A DNA stretch of 8,723 nucleotides from an uncultured Lysobacteraceae bacterium (GTDB lineage Bacteria; Pseudomonadota; Gammaproteobacteria; Xanthomonadales; Xanthomonadaceae), in NCBI GenBank assembly GCA_946482565.1, contig CAMLSB010000068.1, positions 1-8,723 on the forward strand, read 5' to 3'. The position numbers and the translations under genes are program-made. Of this stretch, positions 1 through 8,723 are shown piece by piece (positions within the stretch are counted from its first letter, which is position 1; each line of letters begins with the position of its first letter). The notes under the pieces are model-generated. The model worked only from the letters and a program-made list of their open reading frames with translations, was not told the origin of the DNA and did not search any database.

Positions 1-1
1 G

Positions 2-1429
2 ATCTACGGCGTGTCCACCGGCTTCGGCAGCAATGCCGACAAGCTGCTTGGCGGCAGTGATCCGTCGCTGTACGCGAAGCTGCAGCGCAACCTGATCGAA
101 ACGCATGCCGTCTGCGTCGGCGAGCCCTTCGCACCCGATGTCGTCCGCGCGATGCTGTGCATCCGCATCAACACGCTGCTGCGCGGCCACTCCGGCATCC
201 GCGTGCGGACGCTGCAGGCGCTGGCGGCGATGCTCAACGCGGGCGTGGTGCCGGTCGTGCCGCAGCTCGGTTCCGTCGGCGCCTCGGGCGACCTGGCCCC
301 GCTGTCGCACCTGGCGATCGTGCTGATCGGCGGCGGCGAAGCCTTCTTCGCCGGCGAGCGCCTGCCCGGCGGCGAAGCCCTGCGGCGCGCCGGCCTGCTG
401 CCTATCGAGCTGACGATCAAGGAAGGCCTCGCGCTGAACAACGGCACCGCGCAGATGCTCGCCACGGGCGTGCTTGCGCTGGCGAAGCTGGAGGCGCTGC
501 TCGACACCGCCGACATCGCCGCGGCGATGACGCTCGATGCGTTCGCCGGGCGCCTTGGCGCCTACGCCGAGGAAGTGCATGCGCTGCGCCCGCATCCGGG
601 CCAGGTGCATGTCGCCGCGCGCCTGCGCGCGCTGCTGGCGGGCTCGACGCTGGCCGACATCGCGTACGACCGCGTCCGCGGCAAGAAGGTGCAGCCGCAG
701 GACAGCTATTCGCTGCGCTGCGTGCCGCAGGTGCACGGCGCCGTGCGCGATGCCGTCGCGCAGGCCGCGCGCGTCTTCGAGATCGAGCTCAATGCGGTCA
801 CCGACAATCCGCTGGTATTCCCGGAAGCCGTCGACGCGCCGCTGGACCGCCAGGTGATTTCCGCCGGGCACTTCCACGGCATGCCGCTCGCGCTGGCGAT
901 GAGCTACGTCAAGGCCGCGATCCCCGTGCTCGCGTCGATCTCGGAGCGACGCCTCAACAAGCTCGTGGACCCGGCGACCAGCGATGGCCTGCCGGGCTTC
1001 CTCGTCGGCAACGAGGACGGCACCGAATCCGGCTTCATGATCATCCAGTACACCGCCGCGGCGATCGTCAACGACCTCGCCAGCCGCGCGATGCCCGCGA
1101 CCGTCTACTCGATCCCGACATCCGCGAACGCCGAGGACCACGTGTCCATGGGCGCGAACGAGGCGCGGCACGTGCTGGCGATGGCCGACGACCTCGGCAA
1201 GGTGCTGGCGCTGGAGCTGATGACCGCCGCGCAGGCGCTGGACCTGCGCGTGCGCATGGTCGAAGGCGAGGCGCATCCGGGCATCGCCGTGGCCGCCGCG
1301 CATGCCGCGATCCGCGAACGCATCGCCTTCCTCGCGCGCGACCGCGCGCTCGACGGCGACGTCCGCGCCGCACTGGCCCTGGTCGACGACGGCAGCGTGC
1401 TGGCCGCCGCGAGGGCCGTGGTGCCGTGA
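2..1429 (+). CDS. hutH: Histidine ammonia-lyase (HutH), 5'-truncated by the window edge
   Basis: Converts L-histidine to trans-urocanate and ammonia, the first step of histidine degradation, in the cytoplasm. The frame is open from base 2, and 475 codons are visible before the TGA at 1427-1429. The family is about 510 residues and the fragment begins at the conserved YGVSTGFG motif (Tyr53 region of Pseudomonas HutH), so roughly 50 N-terminal residues are missing. The Ala-Ser-Gly triplet that cyclises into the MIO electrophile is at bases 281-289 within GSVGASGDLAPLSH. QDSYSLRCVPQVHG (active-site Arg) and the EDHVSMG motif near the C-terminus are the HAL-type versions of these motifs, which argues against a phenylalanine or tyrosine ammonia-lyase or the aryl-polyene paralogue. 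The next gene starts inside the stop codon (GTGA, 1426-1429). Other hut genes, if clustered, would lie upstream. Confidence 0.95.
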   Translation: MYGVSTGFGSNADKLLGGSDPSLYAKLQRNLIETHAVCVGEPFAPDVVRAMLCIRINTLLRGHSGIRVRTLQALAAMLNAGVVPVVPQLGSVGASGDLAPLSHLAIVLIGGGEAFFAGERLPGGEALRRAGLLPIELTIKEGLALNNGTAQMLATGVLALAKLEALLDTADIAAAMTLDAFAGRLGAYAEEVHALRPHPGQVHVAARLRALLAGSTLADIAYDRVRGKKVQPQDSYSLRCVPQVHGAVRDAVAQAARVFEIELNAVTDNPLVFPEAVDAPLDRQVISAGHFHGMPLALAMSYVKAAIPVLASISERRLNKLVDPATSDGLPGFLVGNEDGTESGFMIIQYTAAAIVNDLASRAMPATVYSIPTSANAEDHVSMGANEARHVLAMADDLGKVLALELMTAAQALDLRVRMVEGEAHPGIAVAAAHAAIRERIAFLARDRALDGDVRAALALVDDGSVLAAARAVVP

Positions 1430-3042
1430 CGCGCGTCGGCGGCCTCGCGCGGATCGCCGCCGGCGCGTTGGCGCTCGCCGCCGCCGCGATGCCGGTTGCC
1501 CCGGCGTTCGCGCAGTCGCCGTCCGCAACGACACCCGCGATGATGACAGGCGCGGTCTTCGAGGATGCCAACGGCAACGGCACCCGCGACGCGGGCGAAC
1601 ATGGCATTGCAGGCGTCCGGATTTCCAACGGCCGCGACCTGGTCGCCAGCGCCGCCGATGGCAGCTACCGGATAGCGTTGCGTGACGAGACGCCGATATT
1701 CGCGATCAAGCCGTCGGATCGAGCATTTGGTCGGCGCGCCGATGGCCTGCCCGCGTCCTGGTTCGTTCCCATGCCTATCGCCAGGGCAGGCGTTCTTGCC
1801 CCTTGGGATTTCCATTTCGACGTCGGGTTGTCGCCGCGCCACGCCATGCGCGGCCCGATGCAGGTGCTGCTGTTCACCGATCCGCAGGTGAAATCGGAGA
1901 TCGACGTCGGCTACTACCGCCGCGACATCGTCGAGCCGCTGCGCGGCAGCGGCGCGCGCCTGGGCCTGACGCTCGGCGACCTCGCGGACGATACGCCGCA
2001 GCTGTATCCCGAACTCAACGAAGTGACCGCGACGCTCGGCTTGCCTTGGCTGCACGTGCCGGGTAACCACGACGTCGATCCGGGTGCCACCGACGACGCG
2101 ACCTCGCTGCAGGCCTTCCATGCGAGCTACGGCCCCGATACGTTCGCGTGGGAAGAACCCGGTGCGACGTTCATCGGCCTCGACGACATCGTCGCCATGC
2201 CCGGGCAGCGCCCGGCCTACGTCGGCGGCCTGCGCGAGGACCAGTTCGCGTTCCTCGAGGCCTACCTCCCGACGGTGCCGAAGGATCGATTGCTGGTGAT
2301 CGGCGTGCACATTCCGTTCTTCGACGCCGCTGCTCCCGGAGCGCCGCCGACGTTCCGCCCGGCCGATCGCGAGCGCCTGTTCGCGCTGCTGCGCGATTTC
2401 CCGCACGTGCTGCTGCTCAGCGGCCACACCCACAACCAGCAGCACTTCTTCCACGATGCGAGCGACGGCTGGCACGGCGCGCAGCTGCTGCACGAATACA
2501 ACGTCGGCGCGGCCTGCGGCGCGTTCTGGTCCGGCGTGGAGGATGCCGACGGCATTCCCGACAGCACGATGAGCGACGGCACGCCGAACGGCTACGCCGT
2601 GCTCAACGTGCGCGAACATGGCGACTACGCGCTGGCCTGGCACAACGCCCGCGACGCGGCGGACGCGCAGATCGGCCTGTGGGCGCCGAAGGTGCTGCGC
2701 CGCGGCGCCTATCCGGCATGGGGCGTGTACGCCAACGTGTACATGGGCGACGACGCGTCGCGCGTCGAATACCGCATCGACGACGGCGACTGGAAGCCGA
2801 TGCGGCGGGTGCTGCAGCCCGATCCGCGCCTGCTCGCCGAGAACGCGAAGGACGACACTGCCGACGCGCTGCGCGGCTACGACCGTTCGCCCGAAGCCAC
2901 GCCATCGAAGCACCTGTGGCGGGGCGCGCTCGCGACCGGCCTCGCCGCCGGCGTGCACCGCGTCGACGTGCGCTATTTCGATCGTTGGCGCGGAGAACAG
3001 CGCACCGCGACGTCGTACCGGCTCGACGAAGCCGCTCCCTGA
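1426..3042 (+). CDS. Exported calcineurin-like metallophosphoesterase
   Basis: 538 residues from a GTG overlapping the hutH stop; GAGGG at 1411-1415 could serve as ribosome binding site. This start gives a signal peptide: Arg residues at 3 and 9, a hydrophobic Ala/Leu core, and APAFA before Gln30, a good signal peptidase I site. The later ATG at 1489 would destroy it. Residues about 42-80 form a small beta domain opening with DANGNGTRDAGE (47-58), like the calcium-binding loop of SdrD-B or Metallophos_N domains. The catalytic domain shows D152-P-Q154, GD185, G-N214-H215-D216, H295 and GH334-T-H336, the two-metal phosphoesterase set. The first motif is Asp-x-Gln rather than Asp-x-His. The remaining C-terminal part resembles the C-terminal domain found in this architecture. 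The substrate is unknown; it probably acts in the periplasm or outside the cell. Overlap with hutH suggests cotranscription, but no metabolic link is evident. Confidence 0.9.
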   Translation: MTRVGGLARIAAGALALAAAAMPVAPAFAQSPSATTPAMMTGAVFEDANGNGTRDAGEHGIAGVRISNGRDLVASAADGSYRIALRDETPIFAIKPSDRAFGRRADGLPASWFVPMPIARAGVLAPWDFHFDVGLSPRHAMRGPMQVLLFTDPQVKSEIDVGYYRRDIVEPLRGSGARLGLTLGDLADDTPQLYPELNEVTATLGLPWLHVPGNHDVDPGATDDATSLQAFHASYGPDTFAWEEPGATFIGLDDIVAMPGQRPAYVGGLREDQFAFLEAYLPTVPKDRLLVIGVHIPFFDAAAPGAPPTFRPADRERLFALLRDFPHVLLLSGHTHNQQHFFHDASDGWHGAQLLHEYNVGAACGAFWSGVEDADGIPDSTMSDGTPNGYAVLNVREHGDYALAWHNARDAADAQIGLWAPKVLRRGAYPAWGVYANVYMGDDASRVEYRIDDGDWKPMRRVLQPDPRLLAENAKDDTADALRGYDRSPEATPSKHLWRGALATGLAAGVHRVDVRYFDRWRGEQRTATSYRLDEAAP

Positions 3043-3053
3043 GGCGCATGGGG

Positions 3054-3079
3054 GCCCCGGCCCGCGATCGGGCAGGGGC
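3054..3079 (+). terminator. GC-rich hairpin after the phosphoesterase gene, possible weak terminator
   Basis: GCCCC (3054-3058), a G/A mismatch (3059 with 3074), GCCCG (3060-3064), a CGAT loop (3065-3068), CGGGC (3069-3073) and GGGGC (3075-3079) form a stem of ten pairs with one mismatch and a tetraloop. It begins 11 bases after the phosphoesterase stop. Only a poor T-run (TTGACTT) follows, so it is not a textbook intrinsic terminator. It may slow polymerase, protect the 3' end, or help insulate the hut-side transcript from the his promoter that starts right behind it. Confidence 0.45.
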
Positions 3080-3109
3080 TTGACTTCCCCGGACCGCGTG
3101 AATTAATGT
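3080..3109 (+). promoter_or_regulatory. Candidate sigma70 promoter of the repressor-his operon
   Basis: TTGACT at 3080-3085 matches the -35 consensus at five of six positions. After an 18-base spacer, TAATGT (3104-3109) keeps the three most important -10 bases (first T, second A, last T). The -10 overlaps the left arm of the perfect palindrome, as expected for a repressed promoter. Transcription would begin near 3116, leaving a leader of about 20 nt before the ATG at 3137. The -10 match is modest and alternatives inside the palindrome (TATTAA at 3109, TACATT at 3123) exist but lack good -35 partners. Confidence 0.5.
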
Positions 3110-3128
3110 ATTAACACGTTAATACATT
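3105..3128 (+). promoter_or_regulatory. Perfect 24-bp palindromic operator, likely bound by the adjacent TrpR-like repressor
   Basis: AATGTATTAAC (3105-3115), centre AC, GTTAATACATT (3118-3128): an 11-base arm repeated exactly in inverted orientation, one helical turn per half, in an AT-rich island of otherwise very GC-rich DNA. The core GTATTAAC..GTTAATAC resembles the GTACTAGTT/AACTAGTAC layout of the E. coli trp operator, bound by TrpR, a relative of the product of the next gene. It covers the putative -10 and start point and ends 8 bases before the repressor ATG, so autorepression together with control of the his genes is the simplest model. The binding protein is inferred from position and family. 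Confidence 0.8.
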
Positions 3129-3136
3129 CGCACACG

Positions 3137-3469
3137 ATGAAGCAGCGTCCCGAACCCTTGCCGCCCCGCGACGCCAGCGCCTCCTTCCGGGCGCTGGCGC
3201 GGGCGCTTGCGGAACTGGACGACCCGAAGGACGTCGCGGCGTTCCTCGAGGACCTGTGCACGCCCGCCGAGCTCGAGGCCATGGCCGACCGCTGGCGGGT
3301 CGTGCCGTTGCTGGAGCAGGGCCTGCCGTACCGCGAGATCCACGACCGCACCCAGGTCAGCGTCACCACCGTGGGCCGCGTCGCCCGCACCCTCGAGCGC
3401 GGTACCGGCGGCTACGCCACCGCGCTGGCGCGCACGCGCCGCCACCACCACCACCACGCTTCCCACTAG
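3137..3469 (+). CDS. TrpR/YerC-family transcriptional repressor, putative regulator of the his operon
   Basis: 110 residues. Residues about 17-93 match the YerC/YecD branch of the TrpR superfamily: FLEDLCTPAELEAMADRW (36-53), then LLEQGLPYREIHDRTQVSVTTVGRV, with the helix-turn-helix at about 64-86 and a terminal GTGGY (89-93). Members are all-helical dimeric DNA-binding proteins; the effector here is unknown but histidine is a natural guess. The ATG at 3137 is the only sensible start, since the next Met (49) is inside the fold. There is no Shine-Dalgarno sequence before it, so translation may be weak or of a short-leader type. hisG begins 12 bases after the TAG. Odd feature: the tail after the fold ends RRHHHHHASH, with six His in the last eight residues, five of them consecutive CAC codons. 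TrpR-like genes before hisG have, to my recollection, been proposed as his-operon regulators (HisR) in xanthomonads; that is unverified here. Confidence 0.88.
   Translation: MKQRPEPLPPRDASASFRALARALAELDDPKDVAAFLEDLCTPAELEAMADRWRVVPLLEQGLPYREIHDRTQVSVTTVGRVARTLERGTGGYATALARTRRHHHHHASH
3442..3457 (+). repeat. CCA trinucleotide run encoding five consecutive histidines
   Basis: Five tandem CCA units plus C give CAC x5 in the repressor frame (codons at 3443-3457), followed by GCT TCC CAC TAG. The run lies 24 nt before the hisG ATG. It is both a short tandem repeat that could gain or lose units by slippage and a His-codon cluster of the kind found in his leader peptides. Confidence 0.85.
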
Positions 3470-3473
3470 AAGG
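3468..3473 (+). promoter_or_regulatory. Ribosome binding site of hisG
   Basis: AGAAGG overlaps the TAG stop of the repressor gene (3467-3469) and is 8 nt before the hisG ATG at 3482. It is a good Shine-Dalgarno match and fixes the hisG start. Because ribosomes terminating the repressor gene occupy it, hisG translation is likely coupled to passage through the poly-His codons. Confidence 0.7.
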
Positions 3474-3481
3474 CTGCCCGC

Positions 3482-4396
3482 ATGGCTGACACCGCCCTGC
3501 AGGCGGTGCGCCAGCGATTGCGCATCGCCATACAGAAGAACGGACGACTCGGAGAACCCGCGCGCGCGCTGCTGTCCGCCTGCGGCCTGGCCTGGCGCGA
3601 ACAGCGCGACCAGCTGTTCTGCCAGGCCGAGGACGCGCCGTTCGACCTGCTGCTCGTCCGCGACGACGACATCCCGCGGCTGCTGGCGGAAGGGCATTGC
3701 GAGCTGGGCATCGTCGGGCGCAACGTGCTCGGCGAGCAGTGTGCGCGGGCCCGCGAACAAGGCGCCGTCCCGTCCCTCGTCGAGCTGCGCGCGCTCGCTT
3801 TCGGCGAGTGCCGGCTCGCGCTGGCGGTACCGGACACGCAACCGTGGATCGGCCCCTCGGGACTGGCCGGGCAGCGTATCGCCACCAGCCATCCGTCCCT
3901 GCTGCGCGCCTGGCTCGCGGAGCGCCGCATCGACGCGCGCGTCGTGACCTTGTCCGGATCGGTGGAGATCGCGCCACGCCTCGGCCAGGCGGAAGCCGTG
4001 TGCGATCTCGTTTCCTCCGGCCGCACGCTGGCCGCCAACCGGCTCGTGCCGGTCGAGGACGTGCTCGCCAGCGAGGCCGTGCTGGCCGGATCCGGCCAGC
4101 CGTTGGATCCGGTGCGGGGCGCGCTGCTCGATGGCCTGCTGCGGCGCATCGACGGCGTCCTGCGCACGCGCGACCGCCGGCTCCTGGTGTTCAGCGCGCG
4201 TCGCGCGGCGTTGCCGGGATTGCTGGCCCTCATGCCCGACGCCGGTCCTCCGACGGTTTGTTCCATCGAGGACGGCGACAGCGTTTCGCTGCAGGCCTTG
4301 TGGCCCGGCATCGTGTCCTGGCAACGGCTGGAAGCGCTGGAGCGCGCCGGCGCGCGCGGGCTGATGGTGCTGCCCGTCGAGAGGATGCTGGCATGA
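3482..4396 (+). CDS. hisG: ATP phosphoribosyltransferase, long form (HisG)
   Basis: 304 residues. Catalyses the committed first step of histidine synthesis, ATP plus PRPP to N1-phosphoribosyl-ATP, in the cytoplasm. It aligns along its whole length with E. coli HisG (299 residues): [11 protein letters not shown] near the N-terminus, [45 protein letters not shown] and the PRPP-binding DLVSSGRTL at 175-183. The C-terminal part (from about residue 225) is the ACT-like regulatory domain ending in VLPVERMLA, which binds histidine for feedback inhibition in the long form, so no HisZ subunit is needed. The last four bases (4393-4396, ATGA) overlap the hisD start. A 7-bp hairpin sits within codons 3-9. 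Confidence 0.97.
3490..3508 (+). other. Hairpin at the 5' end of hisG
   Basis: CACCGCC (3490-3496), loop CTGCA, GGCGGTG (3502-3508): a perfect 7-bp stem starting 8 nt after the A of the hisG ATG. A second small stem, GCGAT/ATCGC (3514-3528), follows. There is no T-run, so no intrinsic terminator. The GGCGG part could instead pair with CCGCC just before the His codons (3438-3442). In such GC-rich DNA this may be chance. Confidence 0.3.
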
Positions 4397-5691
4397 GGCG
4401 CGTGGACTGGTCGCGCCTGGACGAGGCAGGCAGGCAGCGCATCCTGCAACGCCCCGCGCGTCGCGCCGAAGCGGGCGTGCAGGCGACGGTCGCCGCGATC
4501 TTCGACGCGGTCGCCGCGCGGGGCGATGCGGCGCTGCGCGAATTCGCCGAACGCTTCGATGGCGCGGCGCCAGCGCGCTTCGAACTCGACGAAGGCTCGA
4601 TCGGCGCAGCGTCGACGCAGTTGCCTCCCGCGCTGCGCGCCGCCATCGACGAAGCGGCGACGCGCATCGAGGCCTTCCACCGCGCCTGCCTGTCCGCGGA
4701 CATCGCGCTCGAGACCGCCGCGGGCGTCCGCTGCGAGCGCGTGTTCCGTCCCATCGACAGCGTCGGGCTGTACGTTCCCGCCGGAAGCGCGCCGCTGCCA
4801 TCCACCGCGCTAATGCTCACGATTCCGGCGATGCTCGCGGGGTGCCGGCGCATCGTCCTGTGCACGCCGCCGGGCGCCGGCGGCGCGCCGGATCCCGCGG
4901 TGCTCGCGGTGGCGGCGCGGGTGCCGGGCATCCGTGTCTTCGCACTCGGCGGCGCGCAGGCGATCGCTGCGATGGCGCTGGGCACCGCAAGCGTCCCGCG
5001 CTGCGACAAGCTGTTCGGCCCGGGCAACGCGTATGTCGACGCCGCCAAGCAGTTCGCGGCGCAGCGGCCCGGCGGCCCGGCGATCGATCTGCCCGCGGGG
5101 CCGTCGGAGCTGCTGGTGATCGCCGATTCGGGCGCCGATCCCGCGTTCGTCGCCGCCGACCTGCTGTCGCAGGCCGAGCACGGGCCGGACTCGCAGGTCC
5201 TGTTGCTGTCCGACGATGCCGCATTCCTCGATGCCGTGGATGCCGCGCTCGCGGAACAGTTGCCCCGCCTGCCGCGCGCCGCGTTCGCGCGCGAGGCGCT
5301 GGCGTCGTCGCATGCCGTGCTCGTCCCCACGCTCGACCAGGCGTTCGCGATCAGCAACGCCTACGCACCCGAGCACCTGTCGCTGGCGCTGCGCGAGCCG
5401 CGCGCCTGGCTCGGTCGCGTCGAGTCGGCGGGCGCCGTGTTCCTCGGCGACTGGACGCCCGAGACGCTGGGCGATTACTGCAGCGGGAGCAACCACGTGC
5501 TGCCGACCGGCGGCAGTGCCCGCGCCTGGAGCGGCTTGTCGGTGGATGCGTTCCGCAAGGCCATCGCGGTCCAGGAGGCGACGCGCGCGGGGCTGGAAGG
5601 CGCCGGGCCCTGCGCGGCGACGCTGGCGCGGGCGGAGCGCCTCGTCGCGCACGCGCGCGCGGTCGAACTGCGGCTGGAGCGGGCGGCATGA
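4393..5691 (+). CDS. hisD: Histidinol dehydrogenase (HisD)
   Basis: 432 residues. Zinc-dependent, NAD-linked four-electron oxidation of L-histidinol to L-histidine by way of histidinaldehyde, the last two steps of the pathway. All key residues are present, each one position beyond the E. coli numbering: zinc ligands Q260 and H263 (SQAEHG), D361 (LGDYCSG) and H420 (VAHARAV), and the catalytic pair E327-H328 in [22 protein letters not shown] and the [11 protein letters not shown] stretch are also typical. The ATG at 4393 overlaps the hisG stop; GAGAGGA just upstream (4379-4385) is a good ribosome binding site. The stop in turn overlaps the hisC start (5688-5691). Confidence 0.98.
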
Positions 5692-6773
5692 ACGCCTCCT
5701 CGACCGGCGTCCTGCGCGAGGACCTGCGCGATTTCGCGGGCTATGCGTCCGCGCGCCAGCAGGCGGTGGATGCGGCCATCCGCCTGGATGCGAACGAGTC
5801 GCCGTGGCCGAGCGCCGCGGACGTGCCGGCCGGGCTGCGCTGCTACCCCGAGCCGCAGCCGCGCGCGCTGGCGACGGCGCTGGCGCAGCTGCATGGCGTG
5901 GCGCCCGAACGCGTGCTGGCCACGCGCGGCAGCGACGAGGGCATCGACCTGCTGCTGCGCGCGACCTGCGCGCCGGGGCGGGGCGCGATCGTCACCACGC
6001 CGCCGACCTTCGGCATGTACGCGGTCTGCGCCCGGCTGCATGGCGCGCGCGTGCTGGAGGTGCCCTTGCTCGACGGCGGCGACGGATTCCGCGTCGACCT
6101 CGCTGCAGTCGGCGACGCGGTCCTCGCTTCGGGCGCGCGCCTGGTGTTCCTGTGCTCGCCCGGCAATCCCACGGGCGACGTCGTGCCTCTGGCCGGCATC
6201 GCGGCACTGGCGCGACGCCTGGCGGGGAGCGCCCTGGTCGTCGTCGACGAGGCCTATGGCGAGTACGCCGGCGTGGCGTCGGCGGCGTCGCTGCCGGAGG
6301 CGGCTAACAACGTCGTCGTGCTGCGCACCCTGTCGAAGGCGCATGCGCTTGCCGGCGCGCGCATCGGCTGCGTCATCGCGCCGCCGCTGATCGTCGCGGC
6401 GCTGCGGCGGTGCCAGGCGCCGTATCCGCTGCCTGCGCCGAGCGTGGCGGCCGCGCTCGCGGCGCTGGCACCCGGCGCGCTGGCGCGCACGCAGGCACGG
6501 GTCCGGCGCATCCGCAGCGCGCGCGGCGGGCTCGCCGCGCGCCTGCGCGCGCTGCCGGCGGTGCGGCGCGTCGACGCCTCCGGCGGCAACTTCCTGCTGC
6601 TGCGGCTGGTCGACGCCGATGCCGCCATCGCCCGGCTGCGCGCGGCGGGCATCGCCGTGCGCGACATGCGGTCGGCGCCGTCGCTCGCCGACGCGGTCCG
6701 CGCCACCGTCGGTACCGCGCGACAGAACGCGGCGTTGTTCGACGCGCTGGCGCAGTCGGGGGAGGGCGCATGA
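5688..6773 (+). CDS. hisC: Histidinol-phosphate aminotransferase (HisC)
   Basis: 361 residues, normal for the family. A PLP enzyme of fold type I that transfers the amino group of glutamate to imidazole-acetol phosphate, giving L-histidinol phosphate. Visible landmarks are [10 protein letters not shown] near the N-terminus, [10 protein letters not shown] (phosphate-binding loop), N160 in SPGNPTG, D187 and Y190 in VVDEAYGEY, the Schiff-base lysine K217 in [15 protein letters not shown]225, and RATVGT near the end for substrate phosphate/carboxylate recognition. GGAG at 5676-5679 precedes the ATG by 8 nt. Start and stop both overlap neighbours by 4 bases, with hisD upstream and hisB downstream, so it is translated as part of the his chain. 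Confidence 0.97.
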
Positions 6774-7849
6774 GCTGCGCCCCCATCCTGTTCGTCGACC
6801 GCGATGGCACGCTGGTGGAGGAGCCGGCGGACTTCCAGGTCGATGATTACGCGAAGCTGCGCTTCGTGCCCGGCGCGATCCCCGCGCTCGCGCGCCTGCG
6901 CGCGGCCGGCTATCGCCTGGTGATGGTCACCAACCAGGACGGCCTGGGCACGCCGGCTTTTCCGCGCGCGGCCTTCGATGGCCCGCAGGCGCTGCTCATG
7001 CAGCTGCTGGACAGCCAGGGCGCCGGCTTCGAGGAAGTGCTGGTGGACGACAGCCTGCCCGAGGCGCCGGCGCCGACGCGCAAGCCCGGCCTCGGCCTGG
7101 TCCTGCACCTGCTGCGCGACCGTAGCGTCGACTGGGCGCGTTCGGCGGTGGTGGGCGACCGCGACACCGACCTGGCGTTCGCGGCGAACCTGGGCGTGCG
7201 CGGTTTCAAGCTCGCCTCGTCCGTGTTCGGCGACGGCGTATCGTGGCCGGAGATCGCGCGGCGCCTGCTCGACGCGCCCCGCGTCGCGACGGTCGAGCGC
7301 GCGACGCGCGAAACGCGCATCACGGTGACGGTGGACCTGGACCGCGCCGCCGATCCCGACGTGCGCACCGGCCTGGGCTTCTTCGACCACATGCTCGCGC
7401 AACTCGGCACCCACGCGGGAATCGCGCTGCGCCTGCGCTGCGGCGGCGACCTCGAGGTGGACGAGCACCACGTCGTCGAGGACTGCGCGCTCGCGCTCGG
7501 CGCGGCGCTGCGCGATGCGCTGGGCGACAAGCGCGGCATCGGCCGCTACGGCTTCACCCTGCCGATGGACGAATCGGTCGCGGAAGCGGTGCTGGACCTC
7601 TCCGGCCGCGCCTTCTTCGCCTTCGACGGCGCGTTCGCCCGCGAGCGCGTCGGCGACCTGCCGACCGAGCTCGTCCCGCACTTCTTCCGCTCGCTGGCGG
7701 ACGGCGCCGGCATGGCGCTGCACCTGAGGGTGCGCGGCGACAACGAGCACCACAAGGTCGAGGCCTGCTTCAAGGCGGTCGCGCGCGCGCTGCGCCAGGC
7801 GGTGCGGCGGGAGGGCGCGCAGCTGCCCAGCAGCAAGGGGACCCTGTGA
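6770..7849 (+). CDS. hisB: Bifunctional histidinol-phosphatase / imidazoleglycerol-phosphate dehydratase (HisB)
   Basis: 359 residues (E. coli 355). The N-terminal HAD-type domain (about 1-165) dephosphorylates histidinol phosphate: D10-R-D12-GT, VT54-NQ, K105 in TRKP and GD130RDTD134. The C-terminal domain (about 175-359) dehydrates imidazoleglycerol phosphate: FFDH207ML, DEH233-H234VVED, PMDES, PHFFRS and NEH327-H328KVEACFKA supply the manganese-site histidines and glutamates. The zinc-binding loop of the phosphatase domain, Cys93-x-His95...Cys101-x-Cys103 in E. coli, is replaced at the same positions by Asp93, Ser95, Ala101 and Thr103 while surrounding residues stay aligned. From memory, xanthomonad HisB proteins share this loss. 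GGAG at 6761-6764 precedes the ATG. Overlaps hisC and hisH by 4 bases each. Confidence 0.96.
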
Positions 7850-8463
7850 GCCGGCCGGCGACGCCGGGCGTGGCGATCGTGGATGCCGGCGGCGCGAATT
7901 TCGCGTCGGTGCGCTGCGCCCTCGAGCGCGTCGGCGCGCGCGTCGCCCTCGCCCGCGATGCCGATGGCCTGCGCGGCGCCGAACGCATCGTGCTGCCCGG
8001 CGTCGGCGCCGCCGCGCCGGCCATGGCGCTGCTGCGCGAACGCGGCTTCGAGCACACGCTGCGCTCCGCGAGCGTGCCGCTGCTGGGCATCTGCCTCGGC
8101 ATGCAGCTGTTGTTCGCCGCGTCGGCGGAAGGCGAGGTCGCGACACTGGGCGTGCTGCAGGGCCGGGTCGAGGCCTTGCCTCCCGCGCCGGGCGTGCGCG
8201 TGCCGCACATGGGCTGGAACGTCGTGTCGCCGACGCGCCCGTCGCCGCTGTTCGACGGCATCGCCGCCGGCACCCGGATGTATTTCGTGCACGGTTTCGG
8301 CGCGGCGCCTGGCGAGGACTGCGTGGCCGAGACCGTGCACGGCGCGCCGTTCGCCGCGGCCGTGCAGCGCGGCAACGTCCTCGGCGTGCAGTTCCACCCC
8401 GAACGTTCGGCCGCCGCGGGCGCGCGGCTGCTGGCCAACTTCCTGCGGATGGCCGCGGCATGA
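7846..8463 (+). CDS. hisH: Imidazole glycerol phosphate synthase, glutamine amidotransferase subunit (HisH)
   Basis: 205 residues from a GTG that overlaps the hisB stop (GTGA, 7846-7849), with AAGGGG at 7835-7840 as ribosome binding site. A class I glutaminase that releases ammonia from glutamine and channels it to HisF, which makes imidazoleglycerol phosphate and AICAR. The catalytic triad is C83 in GICLGMQ, H184 and E186 in [14 protein letters not shown] supplies the oxyanion region, and the N-terminal [14 protein letters not shown] is the usual HisH opening. HMGWNVV and YFVHGFG are also characteristic. The partner hisF is not in the window but is expected downstream of hisA. The stop overlaps the hisA ATG at 8460-8463. 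Confidence 0.96.
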
Positions 8464-8723
8464 GCCTGGTCCTGTACCCCGCGATCGACGTGCGCGACGG
8501 CCGCGTCGTGCGCCTGCGCCAGGGCGACTACGCGCGCGAGACGCGCTACCCGGATGCGCCGGAGGCGCAGGCGGCGCGCTACGCCGCGCAGGGCGTCGGC
8601 TGGCTGCACCTGGTCGACCTCGATGGCGCGCGGGACGGAAATTACACGTTACTGCCGCTGCTGCCGGGGCTCGCCGCGACCGGCTTGCGCCTCCAGACCG
8701 GCGGCGGCATCCGCGATGCCGGC
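8460..8723 (+). CDS. hisA: ProFAR isomerase (HisA), 3'-truncated by the window edge
   Basis: The first 88 codons of 1-(5-phosphoribosyl)-5-[(5-phosphoribosylamino)methylideneamino]imidazole-4-carboxamide isomerase, an Amadori rearrangement on a TIM barrel. The fragment covers about the first third of a protein of roughly 245 residues. It shows [19 protein letters not shown] with the catalytic Asp at residue 10, [12 protein letters not shown], and [10 protein letters not shown], the first phosphate-binding glycine loop. The ATG overlaps the hisH stop (ATGA). Only a weak ribosome binding site is visible, consistent with translational coupling. The frame runs open to the last base. Confidence 0.97.

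Follow-up and report, generated by a model that had tools for sequence, protein, structure and literature searches.

Which factor acts on the perfect palindrome directly before the histidine biosynthesis genes of an uncultured Lysobacteraceae bacterium, and what does that factor sense? The palindrome was flagged in a first-pass annotation of the window, by which we mean the whole 8,723-nucleotide stretch analyzed (GenBank assembly GCA_946482565.1, contig CAMLSB010000068.1, positions 1 to 8,723), where it precedes hisR, a TrpR-family repressor gene heading the operon hisR-hisGDCBH. Here, we report that, judged from comparison with related genomes, it very probably serves as operator for the HisR protein encoded 8 bases downstream, and that the conserved element spans about 36 base pairs (bp), larger than the published 20-bp motif.

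HisR and a 20-bp operator ahead of hisR-his operons have been described for Proteobacteria, with Xanthomonadales among the carriers (Ashniev et al. 2022, PMC9413887), so the finding is a member of a described system. Control of hisR-his operons with histidine as co-repressor is reported or predicted for HisR in that paper, which also names yerC as the Bacillus subtilis orthologue, reports that DNA binding in vitro by HisR of Ruminococcus gnavus (Firmicutes) needs L-histidine, and cites a TrpR-like his-operon repressor of Xanthomonas oryzae whose sites and effector are said not to have been studied.

Conservation of the probable operator and its linkage to hisR

The repeat reads AATGTATTAAC AC GTTAATACATT at 3105-3128, with arm bases complementary at 22/22 positions and its end 8 bases before the hisR ATG (3137), just as first annotated. 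It does lie in an AT-rich patch of DNA put at about 70% GC (23% GC in 3100-3129 versus 73% across the window). The accompanying claim that the repeat is too regular to be chance holds for its AT-rich form and not for palindromy as such: at least one perfect repeat with 11-bp arms and a gap of 0 to 4 bp arose in 59/300 dinucleotide-preserving shuffles of the window (roughly p = 0.2, a weak argument), versus 0/300 for an AT-rich version (at most three G/C per arm). Conservation is the deciding evidence.

Relatives were collected by scanning contigs for the HisR protein (181 found, best 80 kept, numbered with the prefix L), and positions -250 to +40 relative to each match start were searched with the pattern TGTANTARNNNNYTANTACA. 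With the window included, 55 sites were exact, 18 had one mismatch, 5 had two, 2 had three, and 1 had four; among the relatives alone, the symmetric form stood before hisR exactly in 54/80 and with at most two mismatches in 77/80. The closest locus, L001, was 85 to 87% identical to the window over the aligned parts of the DNA. Thirty loci read around a PF01371 gene, exact-site ones included, had 17 exact sites, 9 with one mismatch, 3 with two, and 1 with four. Loss of the palindrome before orthologous repressor-hisG loci had been named as grounds for refutation, and the sequence part of that check came out in favor of the operator. The window also carries every specified letter but one of the proteobacterial motif TGTAnTArnnnnyTnTTACA printed for sites upstream of hisR (PMC9413887).

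Two genome sets, in which tables of sites and of PF01371 genes were matched by eye, tie the site to the repressor gene: 16 genomes, all from the 80 loci, and 60 relatives of G001, the closest genome (G001, G003, G009, and G010 are common to both sets). The best site adjoined the sole PF01371 gene in 16/16 genomes of the first set (15 exact, 1 with one mismatch). In the second set, 27 genomes had an exact site, one apiece, and 27/27 of these adjoined the genome's only PF01371 gene over the cutoff; a reversed-pattern control matched in 1/60 genomes. Such a gene was present in 53/60 genomes, 2 of which had an extra match under the cutoff, and the exact site occurred in 0/7 genomes without it. Incomplete assemblies may contribute to the absence of a PF01371 match in those 7/60 genomes.

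Since a search of the two sets (16 and 60 genomes) found no second exact site away from hisR, HisR control looks local to the hisR-his operon on this sequence evidence. Matches away from hisR with one or two mismatches numbered 23 in the 16 genomes (one with a single mismatch) versus 38 for the reversed-pattern control. A wider regulon taking in hut or transporter genes, before which the first-pass annotation had proposed looking for the motif, was rejected: exact sites stood only before hisR in both sets, and the near-matches did not exceed the control.

Promoter evidence came from the sites themselves. After 3 of the 81 sites with more than two mismatches were removed, the 78 left were reduced to 60 by flank identity (window included), and TTGAC stood at positions -29 to -25 relative to the operator core in 37/60 of these dereplicated sites (at -8 or -7 in 11/60). 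In the window, TTAATG or TAATGT follows TTGACT by 17 to 18 bp and overlaps the left arm of the palindrome, which suggests a promoter with its -10 element there. A plain sigma-70 consensus scan of 2950-3550 returned no promoter, so the proposed promoter rests on conservation; the early placement of the palindrome over the likely -10 has the recurrence of TTGAC on its side and the scan against it. The distance from site to ATG was 8 to 10 in 31/60 sites, and a leaderless hisR mRNA with TACATT as -10 was considered as a candidate arrangement. A literature search, judged by title, found no transcription start-site map for Xanthomonas.

Taking these lines together, we consider it highly likely that HisR with histidine at the palindrome represses hisR-hisGDCBH through a promoter whose -10 overlaps the site; binding by the window HisR, and repression, are what we infer from the comparisons. 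With histidine plentiful, the HisR dimer would take up L-histidine, grip the GTAnTAr...yTAnTAC core, and block RNA polymerase at that promoter, so that repression would cover hisR itself as well as hisGDCBH; when histidine falls, HisR would release the site and the operon would be transcribed. On the left, 8 bp out, the conserved flank has an extra YTAR step (Y, pyrimidine; R, purine), and on the right a weaker one; these may let a second, perhaps a third, dimer sit side by side with the first, in the manner of TrpR. The E. coli his operon, among gamma-proteobacterial ones, is under attenuation control (PMC9413887). The conservation found here backs repressor control of histidine synthesis in this order, not attenuation of that type, and the repressor-his operon circuit with histidine feedback proposed at first sight is supported by the conserved site together with the published reports and predictions for HisR (PMC9413887).

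Several observations count against the operator assignment. Position 16 of the printed consensus, which is itself not symmetric there, is unmatched by the window (PMC9413887); 3/80 relatives have three to four mismatches, and L109, one of the 30 loci read around PF01371, has four; 26/53 PF01371-bearing genomes have no exact site; and no published binding or expression data were found for the window protein or for any proteobacterial HisR.

A phased array around the core

The conserved element extends beyond the core as a dyad-symmetric array with 8-bp periodicity. YTAR steps stand 8 bp apart in the window, at 3103-3106, 3111-3114, and 3119-3122, and the 60 sites have YTAR at offsets -4, 4, 12, and 20 in 45, 39, 33, and 25 cases, with in-phase stragglers at -12, 28, and 44 in 1, 3, and 1. 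Off-phase YTAR filled 0/3000 flank cells of these sites and 2/1100 of a replication set of 22 loci (L109 removed from the 30 loci above; the other 29 dereplicated against the first set). TA alone was less telling than YTAR because TGTA and TACA also contain a fixed TA.

Over the eight outside-core columns per side, the dyad correlation of the 60 sites was r = 0.89 (off-register shifts, ≤0.56). The left flank correlated with the sequence further along at 0.80 for an 8-bp shift and 0.64 for a 16-bp shift (≤0.46 otherwise), and the right flank gave 0.77 and 0.74 (≤0.40 otherwise). The 22 further loci repeated the pattern, with a dyad correlation of 0.88 (off-register, up to 0.55), left-flank values of 0.85 and 0.67 (other shifts, up to 0.58), and right-flank values of 0.72 and 0.66 (other shifts, up to 0.47). 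Four loci (L074, L057, L095, and L115) had TA steps in longer runs or a second partial site that overlaps the first, 8 or 16 bp off.

Tandem binding by two or three HisR dimers would be expected to go with an element of this kind, about 36 bp long, dyad-symmetric, and 8-bp periodic, and tandem loading seems the natural reading of the array. Lawson and Carey, in 1993, reportedly observed tandem TrpR dimers spaced 8 bp apart. TrpR is described as binding synthetic operators as tandem dimers (PMC8745587); a literature search found no published account of tandem Trp repressor sites with CTAG. Our proposal, whose chances we see as evenly balanced, is that the HisR operator in the Xanthomonas/Lysobacter order is a phased dyad array of about 36 bp, with YTAR every 8 bp, for cooperative side-by-side loading of two or three histidine-bound dimers. 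In that case the response to histidine would be tuned by outer steps of graded strength, and tandem loading would be an ancient feature shared across the TrpR/HisR superfamily, not one peculiar to E. coli TrpR. The array predicts stepwise complexes 8 bp apart. It also gives a more complete definition of the operator than the 20-bp motif does; the periodic extension seems to be the new detail, the HisR operator itself having been described already. The passages of PMC9413887 consulted, which give the 20-bp motif, make no mention of an 8-bp periodic 36-bp extension, and literature searches turned up no printed account of it.

The array could also arise under a single HisR dimer, with flanks whose 8-bp periodicity reflects the overlapping -10 and AT-rich promoter DNA, an alternative that we regard as possible and rate somewhat short of even. 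In the 37/60 sites with distal TTGAC, the left flank shares bases with a plausible -10 (TAATGT), and a -10 element could account for part of the flank conservation. Tandem loading is further weakened by the window's own right outer step (3127-3130), the fourth, which is degenerate, and by the full right-hand YTAR step being confined to 25/60 sites and to 11/37 of the distal-TTGAC class. Against a single dimer, the right flank is still conserved in the same 37 sites (TT at +20/21 in 32/37), where the promoter gives no reason for it, and off-phase steps are almost nil in both sets.

Ligand and identity of the binder

HisR is a member of the TrpR superfamily (PF01371, 85.4 bits; cutoff, 27) of the YerC/YecD type (TIGR02531, 54.2 bits; cutoff, 42.2), and the only solved structures matching it at an expectation value (E) of 0.01 were the TrpR-like 3kor, 3g1c, and 3frw. 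The initial label of TrpR-like repressor is thus apt as to family and wrong if read as TrpR: the TIGR01321 model gave 31.6 bits, under its cutoff of 67.25, and a true TrpR was rejected.

Residue equivalences were taken from the profile alignment, and invariance was counted over 18 sequences, window included. Leu41, Leu43, Arg54, and Arg84 belong to the tryptophan-binding pocket of TrpR. HisR keeps the two arginines as Arg52 and Arg81, and Asp39, Cys41, and Val82 stand for Leu41, Leu43, and Gly85, with Asp39 and Val82 invariant; by alignment, the tryptophan pocket including Gly85 is not retained. The Gly85 position is linked to the tryptophan site (PMC8745587). On the DNA side, Arg66, Thr78, and Arg81 equal the TrpR contacts Arg69, Thr81, and Arg84 (contacts per PMC9413887), Val76, Thr77, and Gly80 stand for Ile79, Ala80, and Thr83, and all six equivalents are invariant in 18/18 sequences.

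These pocket replacements favor an amino acid other than tryptophan, histidine being the obvious candidate, and by analogy we take histidine to be the probable co-repressor of the window HisR. Asp39, Cys41, Arg52, Arg81, Val82, and Thr85, presumably the proteobacterial histidine pocket by alignment to the TrpR pocket residues, form a concrete target for structure determination.

That the protein instead senses tryptophan, as a true TrpR, or a pathway intermediate is improbable. In favor of this reading, the operator half-sites are close to those of TrpR, and the equivalents of Arg54 and Arg84 are retained; against it, the TrpR model failed where YerC/YecD passed, an invariant Asp and Val occupy the Leu41 and Gly85 positions, hisG lies immediately after hisR in the window and in 80/80 relatives, and the Firmicutes HisR needs L-histidine (PMC9413887). 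The failed model and the Gly85 replacement are in line with the early suggestion of a function separate from tryptophan control. The effector question raised there has been answered for one Firmicutes HisR, for which histidine has been shown in vitro (PMC9413887); for the proteobacterial branch, histidine is the candidate. What is still of interest is the phased array, together with the ligand of this branch.

E. coli TrpR shares with HisR the fold family, three of the six listed DNA-contact residues, and operators with TGTA ends and CTnG/YTAR steps at equal positions of the 20-mer; the window differs in its central tetramer CRYG, altered ligand pocket, his operon target, and failure at the TrpR cutoff. 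The Firmicutes HisR/YerC proteins (3kor, 3g1c, and 3frw) are the nearest solved relatives by sequence, but their operator consensus is cacTTTAnnnnnnTAAAgtg (PMC9413887), and these chains align Leu or Ala with TrpR Arg69, where PMC9413887 aligns Tyr.

An RNA hairpin (attenuator, terminator, or 5' structure) in place of a protein site is very improbable and was rejected by simple tests. Although the site is an inverted repeat by nature and E. coli-type gamma-proteobacterial his operons use attenuation (PMC9413887), symmetric positions often could not pair among 46 distinct sites, window included (positions 5/16 unpaired in 25, 8/13 in 15), while TGTA/TACA was nearly fixed. No Rfam leader was found in 2900-3700, where the sole listed match, a microRNA (E, 0.89), was far below the gathering score and reads as chance; there was no terminator-like site in 2950-3550; and much of the repeat would precede the transcription start or coincide with it.

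HutC operators differ from this site, being shorter palindromes. HutC is, like HisR, a histidine-linked repressor, here with a hutH-like gene near the operon, but belongs to the GntR family (PMC5343134). Binding by HutC or another GntR protein, for example of the YtrA type, is very improbable: a hutH gene stands upstream in the window, as it does within the flank fetched (up to 6 kb) for 33/80 relatives, and a single-mismatch lookalike occurs at a GntR-family gene in one genome, but the 20-bp layout matches TrpR and HisR sites, and the linkage of exact sites to PF01371 genes (27/27, with 0/7 where that gene is missing) led us to reject such a binder, no search for a HutC gene having been made.

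The lookalike lies in L086 (~2015-2034), at the start of the GntR-family regulator gene, which by eye is followed by an ABC transporter ATPase-like frame; it is perhaps the operator of that regulator itself. A different recurrent site, close to TGTGGTAGTAANGTAGTACA and departing from the HisR pattern by two mismatches, was seen by eye in 9/16 genomes, sites of this kind being noted in L085 (~2522-2541), G002, G006, G007, and G011-G016. In L085, the one locus scanned, it stands just 5' of an XAC0231-family gene, and a small protein that looks similar by eye comes after it in L087.

Operon features and neighboring genes

Table 1. Coordinates of the features assigned in the window and the basis of each
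Feature	Position	Strand	Basis
Likely -35, TTGACT	3080..3085	+	TTGAC recurrence; candidate -10 TTAATG or TAATGT within 3103-3109
Extended 36-bp array, TGAA-TTAA-TGTA-TTAA-CACG-TTAA-TACA-TTCG-CACA	3099..3134	.	Dyad symmetry and 8-bp periodicity, 60 and 22 loci
Perfect 11+2+11 inverted repeat	3105..3128	.	As in first-pass annotation
20-bp HisR operator core, TGTATTAACACGTTAATACA	3107..3126	.	Published motif match; conservation in relatives
hisR, TrpR-family (YerC/YecD) repressor, 110 amino acids, first gene of operon	3137..3469	+	TIGR02531, PF01371
hisG, ATP phosphoribosyltransferase (with C-terminal domain)	3482..4396	+	TIGR00070, TIGR03455
hisD, histidinol dehydrogenase	4393..5691	+	TIGR00069
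hisC, histidinol-phosphate transaminase	5688..6773	+	TIGR01141
hisB, bifunctional phosphatase/dehydratase	6770..7849	+	NF003937
hisH, imidazole glycerol phosphate (IGP) synthase glutaminase subunit	7846..8463	+	TIGR01855

The 3' end of hisR (3440-3469), just 5' of hisG, encodes a natural five-His run in the C-terminal RRHHHHHASH. The His codons were considered as a built-in attenuation sensor, a candidate dropped because the five-His run occurs in 0/80 relatives; the ends nearest to it are RRHPHHASH in L001, GHHHATH in L073, and HRHHAG in L060, and beyond L001 and L073 none of the 80 has three consecutive C-terminal His.

A hutH-like histidine ammonia-lyase gene (11-1429) precedes the his operon in the same orientation. 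In L001, L004, and L015, the three relatives examined for this, hisS (histidyl-tRNA synthetase) comes before the hutH-like gene, which places a catabolic gene between hisS and the his operon. Between hutH and hisR, the window encodes a calcineurin-like metallophosphoesterase with a MetallophosC domain (1501-3042), found by tblastn in the flank of 1/80 relatives (L001).
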